Shown piece by piece: positions 11,822 to 56,181 of a stretch of 64,000 nt of DNA. This DNA is from an alpha proteobacterium SCGC AAA536-G10 (lineage in GTDB: Bacteria; Pseudomonadota; Alphaproteobacteria; Puniceispirillales; Marisalimonadaceae), in the NCBI GenBank assembly GCA_905182395.1, contig CAJJBL010000018.1:1-64000 (forward strand), given 5' to 3'. Position 1 is the first letter of the stretch. Each line of letters opens with the position of its first letter. Position numbers and translations under genes: made by a program. Under the pieces are notes generated by a model. That model searched no databases. It saw nothing but the letters and a program-made list of their open reading frames with translations, and was not told where the DNA came from.

Positions 11822-11993
11822 ACTTACCCCATCTGTCACGGAACCTGAAAGATTGACCAAGATTAAACTTAGCTTACCCCTTCGGTGGATGATTGATATC
11901 ATCTCTCTCCAGATTGTCTACTTTTGATGTTTCGGGTGCCTGAGAGTTTCCGGGGTGGTTGCTCCTTCGGCGGCTATAAAATAACTCTCTCAC
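11822..11993 (-). promoter_or_regulatory. Tandem glycine riboswitch upstream of the DadA-like gene
   Basis: Reverse strand reads gagagagtt..gccGCCGAAGGAGCAAcc..aaACTCTCAGGCAccc..TCTGGAGAGAGATGAT..ccaCCGAAGGGGTAAGC..aatctTTCAGGttccgtgACAGATGGGG, matching the two aptamer cores of glycine riboswitches, about 35 nt before the start codon. Confidence 0.88.
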
Positions 11994-20781: not shown

Positions 20782-21405
20782 TTAAAACAGAATTTTAGAA
20801 ATGTTAATTCTTGATTTGGCTATTAGAAATTTACAGTATTCTAATAATATTAATGAAAATGTTTCATATGAATATATCCAATTATTAATATTGTGTTTTT
20901 CAGGAGTAATAGGGTATTTAATAATTTTTAAGTTAGGCATTTTATTTTTAAATTCTAAAACAGCTCTTGGCATATGATAGTTACTAGTAATAAGAATAAG
21001 TTGTTTTATATTATTTTTATTAACCCATATCAGGGTTTCTATTGCATTCGAACGAGTGTTTTGAGATTTATTATCTAGTTCTAGGCAGCATTCAATAAAT
21101 ATATTCAGTGGATCATTTTTTGATAATAGTTTATTTACATTTGATTTTGTAAAACCTTTGCCAGTACCACTAATAAGTATATCAATATTCATTGATCCCA
21201 ATTTACTAAAATTTTTAATTAATTTTAACCCTTCCTTAATTCTATTTGATCCCCCTGTTAGAATGACAACGTTCTCTGCTTCTTTAATAGAATATTCTGT
21301 AAGAGATTGAACTTGCTCTTTATACTTTAATAATCCAGTACAAAAATAAATAAATATAATTATAAAAATTAGTAAAAAAAATACTTTAAAAATATGTTTG
21401 TTCAT
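20782..21405 (-). CDS. YdcF/ElyC family (DUF218) membrane protein
   Basis: N-terminal TM; NVVILTGGSNRIKEGL, NTRSNAIETL, ILITSNYHMPRAVLEF. Confidence 0.87.
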   Translation of the reverse strand: MNKHIFKVFFLLIFIIIFIYFCTGLLKYKEQVQSLTEYSIKEAENVVILTGGSNRIKEGLKLIKNFSKLGSMNIDILISGTGKGFTKSNVNKLLSKNDPLNIFIECCLELDNKSQNTRSNAIETLIWVNKNNIKQLILITSNYHMPRAVLEFKNKMPNLKIIKYPITPEKHNINNWIYSYETFSLILLEYCKFLIAKSRINISKILF

Positions 21406-21497: not shown

Positions 21498-22379
21498 TTG
21501 ATGAGAGAGACGTGTAAGTCATGTGGAACTGTATTTGATTTAGATGAAAACACGCTATCTAATGAAGTGCATTGGTTAAAATGTAGTGTTTGTAATGAAA
21601 AGTGGATTCCATCAACTAAAAATAATAATACAACAATAGAAAATAAAATCACTACAATTGATTATAAAGAAAAGTTAAAAGAAGCACCGTCTAAAAGTTT
21701 CAATAATAATGAAATTAATAAAGTTAAAAATGAGCTTGCTTCAATTAAATTTGCTGTAGAAAACAACTCTAAAAAAATGTCTGATTCAAAAAATTCTATA
21801 TTAAATCTAAAAAACCAATCTGTTGCAGAAATTGCTAATGAACTGGCTGCTTCAAAATTAAAAAATGATCCTTTGCAAGAAAGTAAACGAAAAGAAAAAA
21901 ATAATGTAACTAAAACTAAAAAAATTAAAATTTATCCTTTAGTTTTAGTTACATTATTTTTTTCTTTAGGAGTATCTGTTTTTTTTAGATCTGCCATTCT
22001 TGGTTATAGTTATAAATACTTGCCGTCACATACTAAAGAATATAATCAAAAAATTAATGATTTTTTTCAATTTATTAAATTACCAATTATGGCTGAATTA
22101 AATCATATTAAAATAGTAGACTTCAGTGCAACTTTTCAAAAAAATACTGTCAAATTTATAGGTATCCTAAAAAATAATTCGTCTAGGCCAATTTTAGTAC
22201 CAAAGATTAAAGTTATAGCAGTTACTGAAGATGGAAAAATTTTGATTGAAAAAATTATACCATTGATAGCTAAAGTATTATTGCCATTTTCTCAAATTGA
22301 ATTTAATGATGTTATAAAAACAAAATTTAAACAGGAAAATATAAGAGTAAGAGTAACTCTTTTAAAACAAGTATTTTAA
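21498..22379 (+). CDS. MJ0042-type zinc-ribbon protein with a TM segment and DUF3426-like C-terminus
   Basis: CKSCGTVFDLDENTLSNEVHWLKCSVCNEKWIP zinc ribbon, Lys/Ser-rich linker, TM IYPLVLVTLFFSLGVSVFF, and a C-terminal periplasmic domain. Confidence 0.8.
   Translation: MMRETCKSCGTVFDLDENTLSNEVHWLKCSVCNEKWIPSTKNNNTTIENKITTIDYKEKLKEAPSKSFNNNEINKVKNELASIKFAVENNSKKMSDSKNSILNLKNQSVAEIANELAASKLKNDPLQESKRKEKNNVTKTKKIKIYPLVLVTLFFSLGVSVFFRSAILGYSYKYLPSHTKEYNQKINDFFQFIKLPIMAELNHIKIVDFSATFQKNTVKFIGILKNNSSRPILVPKIKVIAVTEDGKILIEKIIPLIAKVLLPFSQIEFNDVIKTKFKQENIRVRVTLLKQVF
21891..21967. repeat. Perfect 30-bp inverted repeat with 17-nt loop, inside a CDS
   Basis: Left arm 21891-21920 aaagaaaaaaataatgtaactaaaactaaa; right arm 21938-21967 tttagttttagttacattatttttttcttt. 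Checked base by base as reverse complements. Confidence 0.93.
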
Positions 22380-22381
22380 TT

Positions 22382-23644
22382 TTAAAAATATTTTAACAAA
22401 ATTTCTTTTTTAATTAATTTTTCAATACTTTCAGTTTTTTTAATTAAATATTCTTTATTATTATATATTATAATTTCATTAGCGTCAGCTCGGGCATTAT
22501 AATTGGAACTCATTACTGAAGCGTATGCTCCAACAGTCCTTATTGCTAAAAAATCATTATTATCAACACTTTGAATTTTTCTATCTAAAGCTATAAAATC
22601 TCCAGTTTCACAAATAGGGCCTACAATATCAGCTGTGATTTTATGATTATGATTAATATTAACAGGTTCTACTTCATGAAAAGCTTCATATAAGGTTGGC
22701 CGAATTAAATTATTCATTGCGGCATCAACTATAATAAATTTTTTATCATTGTTTTTCTTATTTCTTATTACTTTTGTTACAAGAATACCTGCCTCAGCAA
22801 TTAAACTTCTTCCAGGTTCAAAACTAAGATTATAGTCAGAGTTTAAAAATAAATCAGTGACAATTTTTCTGTATTTTGAAAAATCAGGAGGGATATTATT
22901 TTGATAATTGATCCCAATGCCGCCTCCAAGGTCTAAGCTTGGTACTTGAAAGTTATTTTTTTTTAATTCATCAGCCAAAGACTTAAGACTAGAATATGCT
23001 GTAAAAAAATAATCAAAATCAAAAATTTGTGACCCAATGTGAACGGCTAATCCAACGGGATTAATGTAATCTAAATCATGAAGTCTTTGGTATATTGTCT
23101 TTACATTTTCAAAGTTAATGCCAAACTTTGTACTCTTTTCTCCTGTAGATATTTTTTTATGTGTATTAGGAGAAATGTCAACGTTTATTCTAAGACATAT
23201 GTTAGCTGTAATTTTAAGTTTAGAGGCTATTCTTTGAATATCATTAAGTTCTTCTTCAGATTCAATATTAAATTGTAAAATATTATTTTTAAGAGCTAAT
23301 TCAATTTCGGTATTTTCTTTTCCTACTCCTGAAAATATTATTTTTTTTGGAGAAACACCCGCCGCAATACATTTTTTAAATTCTCCAATGGAAACTATGT
23401 CTGCCCCACATCCTAATTTTGCGAAATAACTAATTATACTTATTGAATCATTTGCTTTAACAGCGTAATGTATATTCCCTTTTACAGGACTAACTGCATC
23501 TAAAAATGCTTCATATCTTTGTTTCATTAAGCCGGTATCGTATATAAATAATGGAGTGCCGTATTTTTTAGCTAAATCACTAATTTTTAAGTCTTGCACG
23601 CAGAGTGTTTGATTATGATCTCTATAGAAACCTGGTAAATTCAT
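22382..23644 (-). CDS. lysA: Diaminopimelate decarboxylase
   Basis: HYAVKANDSISIISYFAKLGCGADIVSIGE, LGGGIGINY, CETGDFIA. Confidence 0.95.
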   Translation of the reverse strand: MNLPGFYRDHNQTLCVQDLKISDLAKKYGTPLFIYDTGLMKQRYEAFLDAVSPVKGNIHYAVKANDSISIISYFAKLGCGADIVSIGEFKKCIAAGVSPKKIIFSGVGKENTEIELALKNNILQFNIESEEELNDIQRIASKLKITANICLRINVDISPNTHKKISTGEKSTKFGINFENVKTIYQRLHDLDYINPVGLAVHIGSQIFDFDYFFTAYSSLKSLADELKKNNFQVPSLDLGGGIGINYQNNIPPDFSKYRKIVTDLFLNSDYNLSFEPGRSLIAEAGILVTKVIRNKKNNDKKFIIVDAAMNNLIRPTLYEAFHEVEPVNINHNHKITADIVGPICETGDFIALDRKIQSVDNNDFLAIRTVGAYASVMSSNYNARADANEIIIYNNKEYLIKKTESIEKLIKKEILLKYF

Positions 23645-56140: not shown

Positions 56141-56181
56141 ATTATTTAAAGAATATATGAAATAAATATTCTTTAAATAAT
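56141..56181 (+). promoter_or_regulatory. Perfect 16-bp inverted repeat (hairpin) in the secA upstream region
   Basis: attatttaaagaatat (56141-56156), loop atgaaataa (56157-56165), atattctttaaataat (56166-56181). It ends a few nt before the ggag Shine-Dalgarno of secA. Confidence 0.75.

Follow-up and report, generated by a model that had tools for sequence, protein, structure and literature searches.

We report a perfect 30-bp inverted repeat inside a protein-coding gene of the alphaproteobacterium SCGC AAA536-G10, and we propose that it was produced by template switching during replication (quasipalindrome correction), a reading to which we assign a probability of roughly 0.72 on the basis of sequence comparison. 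The repeat lies in the 64,000-nt stretch of contig CAJJBL010000018.1 that was analysed here (hereafter, the window). In the sister species we found a covarying version of the hairpin, shifted in register, and the hairpin is absent from the 36 orthologues scored in three other genera of the family. One process, the copying of one arm from the other, would explain the origin of the stem, the paired changes, the register shift and the cluster of differences between the two species. The mechanism itself is already known, and the repeat represents an unusually long and clear example of it in bacterial coding DNA.

Results

The repeat and its gene

The repeat search of the window identified two arms that are exact reverse complements over 30 of 30 nucleotides and enclose a 17-nt loop (Table 1), as an earlier sequence-only reading of this DNA had stated. 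Both arms lie within an intact ORF of 292 codons, from an ATG at 21501 to a stop codon at 22377-22379. The encoded product consists, from the N- to the C-terminus, of a CxxC-CxxC zinc ribbon, a Lys/Asn-rich linker, one predicted transmembrane (TM) segment and a conserved C-terminal domain. It had previously been labelled as a zinc-ribbon/DUF3426-like protein. The first half of this label holds, since Zn_ribbon_4 matched above its cut-off (E=8.6e-8) in our Pfam search of the window protein, but it was the only model to do so and DUF3426 gave no match.

The right arm does encode the beginning of the TM segment, as had been noted, but it does not coincide with the ten codons of LVLVTLFFSL. It is instead out of codon register: its first base is the final T of a Pro codon (CCT), the nine codons of LVLVTLFFS follow, and it ends two bases into the adjoining Leu codon. 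Third codon positions face each other across the stem, and first positions face second ones. The stem is composed almost entirely of A-T pairs, and its T run sits within an arm.

Regarding the surroundings of the gene, lysA (22382-23644, minus strand) is convergent with it, and the two stop codons are separated by 2 nt (22377-22384), which leaves no room for an intergenic terminator. On the opposite side, a divergent gene (20782-21405, minus strand) encodes a protein with an N-terminal hydrophobic segment that appears YdcF-like by eye only and had no NCBIfam match. The window also contains a glycine riboswitch aptamer at 11823-11922 on the minus strand (Rfam RF00504, 59 bits).

Table 1. Position of the inverted repeat and associated features in the window.
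Feature	Coordinates	Strand	Basis and remarks
Repeat-bearing gene	21501-22379	+	ORF; Pfam Zn_ribbon_4; family orthologues; alignment
Left arm	21891-21920	+	Repeat search; Lys/Asn linker, encodes KEKNNVTKTK
Loop, 17 nt	21921-21937	+	Contains AAAATTAAAATT
Right arm	21938-21967	+	Repeat search, alignment; start of TM helix
Raised-divergence segment	21921-22040	+	17 differences in 40 codons

A covarying and shifted hairpin in the sister species

Our family set comprised 58 genomes, with the gene present in 46 and one other genome belonging to the same genus. In this sister species, where the gene is ~93% identical at the DNA level, a hairpin occurs at the same site with 29 of 30 positions paired, an 8-nt loop and an altered sequence. 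When each arm was compared with its counterpart in the other species, we observed four differences between the right arms and three between the left arms. All three left-arm differences are exact complements of right-arm ones, three of the four right-arm changes being thereby mirrored; the probability that three left-arm changes would all fall by chance on the partners of four right-arm changes is ~0.001. The mirrored pairs (A-T to G-C, G-C to A-T and C-G to T-A) are all transitions. The arms fit each other at 30/30 and 29/30 positions within a species, against 26/30 and 27/30 across species. Moreover, six out of six paired changes are nonsynonymous and located at codon positions 1 and 2, and none is found at the ten wobble-wobble pairs, an absence that has a probability of ~0.3 by chance given only three events.

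The sister left arm is located 9 nt closer to the right arm (loop of 8 vs 17 nt), and other length changes are found upstream. Aligning the two linkers linearly requires awkward gaps, with the arm itself preserved at a different distance. The 9-nt shift and the upstream length changes together indicate that plain inheritance plus point mutation does not account for the left arm. The motif AAAATTAAAATT, which precedes the right arm and belongs to the loop in the window, has a sister homologue that is partly within the stem; this motif is a plausible seed of the repeat. Between the two species, divergence reaches ~14% in the segment listed in Table 1, compared with ~4% elsewhere in the gene, and this clustering is supported by codon permutation (best 34-codon window, p=0.012).

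Distribution in the family and origin of the arms

None of the 36 scored orthologues from three other genera of the family carries a comparable hairpin, and no further relatives were found in viral contigs. Matches between linker and TM in the other-genus orthologues measure 7-12 nt, as composition predicts, apart from the best one, a perfect match in another genus (L022 gene, codons 115-155) that measures 18 nt and has a loop of 85 nt. In L023, the sister of L022, right-arm changes occur without matching left-arm changes. Given its absence from the scored orthologues, the long loop of the L022 match and the unmatched changes in L023, an older, family-wide hairpin was rejected. This distribution suggests that the hairpin arose on the branch leading to the genus, either as a single event or independently in the two species, or that it was lost elsewhere.

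Alignment with relatives had been put forward as a way to recognise the ancestral arm. The TM segment is homologous throughout the orthologues, while the linker is variable in length and sequence and has diverged far in other genera. For this reason, the left (linker) arm is probably the re-written copy and the right (TM) arm its template.

Discussion

Template switching as the probable origin of the repeat

Two features expected of template switching are found at this locus, namely a closely spaced inverted repeat beyond chance and, relative to a close relative, changes copied between arms (three of the four in the right arm). The comparison with the sister species further suggests that switching was repeated, rather than being a single accident. 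Of the three origins suggested by the sequence-only reading, the best supported is therefore the one in which a template switch caused one arm to be overwritten from the other and the linker and TM codons absorbed the change.

We suggest the following model. An AT-rich Lys/Asn linker (AAA, AAT) lying beside a Phe/Leu/Ile TM segment (TTT, TTA, ATT) is partly self-complementary by nature and could act as the seed. Most likely in the genus ancestor, the nascent strand would have folded back on itself at an imperfect repeat of this kind, used the TM-coding strand as a template so that the linker received its reverse complement, and then resumed synthesis on the original template, leaving behind a hairpin of ~30 bp. 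The linker may tolerate this rewriting, being free in both sequence and length. The process would subsequently recur, point changes in one arm being copied to the other, and the 9-nt displacement of the left arm probably stems from at least one such rewriting.

Some considerations weigh against this model. All three mirrored pairs are transitions, which could pass through G-U as in slow RNA compensation; the hairpin is carried by two species only; and the events described in yeast genes have shorter arms, of 7-16 nt. In addition, the 0.92 Mb examined contained no other case as large, which indicates that the process seldom leaves such traces here, and some retention by selection is possible.

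A broader proposal, which we put forward tentatively and hold to be rather doubtful, is that of a self-perpetuating coding hairpin. In AT-rich genomes, the point where a Lys-rich linker meets a TM segment would then constitute a standing hotspot of template switching, with the linker being repeatedly rewritten as TM antisense, so that two parts of the protein would evolve in concert by mutation and not by selection.

A selected mRNA hairpin as a rival reading

The strongest competitor of template switching, although we judge it unlikely, is a selected mRNA hairpin (involved in translation pausing, RNase III processing or attenuation), in which compensatory substitutions would maintain the pairing. 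Folding against controls gave a predicted energy of -40.8 kcal/mol vs -16.1 +/- 3.3 for dinucleotide shuffles (z -7.5), and the sister version is predicted to be stable too (-35.4). The three covarying pairs and the presence in both species of a structure that is unique in the sampled genome would also agree with RNA selection. However, three paired changes are equally expected of arm copying and of RNA compensation, and the hairpin is absent from the scored orthologues of the three other genera; being found in two species only, the structure is not conserved across lineages more than the sequence. All the covarying changes alter the protein, and they leave untouched the wobble-wobble pairs, at which selection on the RNA would barely affect the protein, an argument that is weak with three events. 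Neither the loop length nor the arm position is conserved, and the region diverges faster, not slower, than the rest of the gene. Furthermore, a pause at the base of the stem would precede the TM codons, and would thus occur before the TM segment is made.

At the locus we found no terminator-like site, that is, no G+C-rich stem followed by a T run. An intrinsic terminator or attenuator was accordingly rejected, the stem being almost all A-T with its T run inside the arm, and so was a known RNA family or riboswitch, as the locus had no Rfam match. The earlier proposal of a selected hairpin or attenuator is disfavoured as an explanation by the lack of a terminator-like site, the absence from three genera and the nonsynonymous nature of the paired changes.

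Mobile element, artefact and chance as improbable alternatives

Two other explanations appear very improbable, and to a similar extent. The first is a mobile palindromic element inserted in frame, similar to those of Rickettsia, which would fit an in-frame palindrome within a gene and close to a tolerant linker. Searches of both genomes, however, revealed no second copy, returning this locus and short AT-rich matches (20-70 bp, 74-100% identity), and a Rickettsia-type element was rejected for want of dispersed copies. Besides, the right arm corresponds to the TM segment that is homologous among the orthologues and is not an insert. The second is a foldback artefact of amplification or assembly. 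Artefacts are known to take the form of perfect inverted repeats, and both sequences come from draft, fragmented assemblies. Nevertheless, the two separate genomes differ in sequence and loop while the reading frame is intact, and covarying versions are not expected of an artefact. The different hairpin version in a second, independently assembled genome contradicts the foldback that had been considered as a possible origin.

As for the genomic background, the 30-bp hairpin is the strongest in the ~0.92 Mb of the genus that we examined. The runner-up perfect hairpin in the window (56141-56181) has 16-nt arms and a 9-nt loop. Our survey of inverted repeats with a span of up to ~220 nt covered 0.85 Mb (0.20 Mb from this genome, 0.65 Mb from its sister), in which no other repeat scored above 19; the 30-bp repeat is not a dispersed one. 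In order-2 Markov sequences, top scores were 17 with the window composition (60 x 64 kb) and 19 with the local, more AT-rich composition (30 x 64 kb), vs 30 for the real arm, and no equally long repeat was seen in them. Extrapolating from the simulated fall-off of ~0.4 per added base, we expect ~1e-6 such repeats per 64 kb. Permutation of the linker codons gave a best score of 17, which together with the Markov maxima agrees with the prior claim that the repeat lies beyond what AT bias would give by chance. Synonymous-codon shuffles reached maxima of 29 and 27, but they are a poor control, as the amino-acid sequence almost dictates the repeat. That Lys codons and Phe/Leu codons in AT-rich DNA happen to be complementary by chance is the least credible explanation and can practically be set aside, even though composition does lift the background, as seen in the linker/TM matches of the orthologues.

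Two further observations are worth recording. An identical 23-nt inverted repeat with a 104-nt loop (ATCTATGAGGCTAAATGGCTTGG) is present in both species (L071, 389-538; L049, 138-287); it is less AT-rich than its genome and is possibly a conserved RNA or regulatory element. In the sister genome, four of the seven strongest hairpins are located on a single 14.7-kb contig, L051 (5945-5993, 7578-7682, 14336-14378); this contig could represent a foreign or mobile replicon.

Implications and comparison with known systems

Paired changes in a stem are usually read as proof of RNA function. The locus described here offers a natural case, in a coding gene, in which paired nonsynonymous changes more likely derive from a copying mutation, and it calls for caution, as covariation or clustered amino-acid change need not signal selection or RNA function. 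It is also a locus where strain-level sequencing could tell template switching from RNA selection.

In a survey of prokaryotes, the excess of short inverted repeats seen in coding sequences is cited as a possible product of template switching (PMC4060949). Rickettsia palindromic elements are in-frame palindromes in bacterial genes, but they are dispersed selfish insertions, whereas our repeat is single-copy and one of its arms is native TM code. The mitochondrial coding palindromes of nematomorphs (PMC6649704) are perfect inverted repeats in functional protein genes and are thought to be actively homogenised; they are numerous and up to 284 bp long, compared with the single 30-bp bacterial case reported here. 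Template switching has also been shown to generate RNA hairpins and to preserve them through paired, seemingly compensatory changes (PMC8794818). As proposed for our repeat, those stems are made in one step and kept perfect by multi-base paired changes that mimic compensation, but they belong to RNA genes, and ours to a coding sequence without known RNA function.

In coding genes of Saccharomyces cerevisiae, template switching homogenises the arms of inverted repeats, producing clusters of nonsynonymous changes and repeated events at one locus (PMC8604942). Our repeat appears to follow a similar pattern, with the difference that the arms measure 7-16 nt in yeast and 30 nt here, in a bacterium and with a register shift. 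Finally, template switching turns quasipalindromes perfect in E. coli (PMC7202029), and the quasipalindrome mutations known from bacteria (Ripley model; E. coli thyA hotspot; lacZ QP reporters, PMC7202029) share with the origin proposed for our repeat the copying of one arm from the other, the passage from imperfect to perfect and the local clustering of mutations. Those are single mutations in laboratory strains, whereas the 30-nt arm described here is carried by two diverged species of an uncultured lineage.
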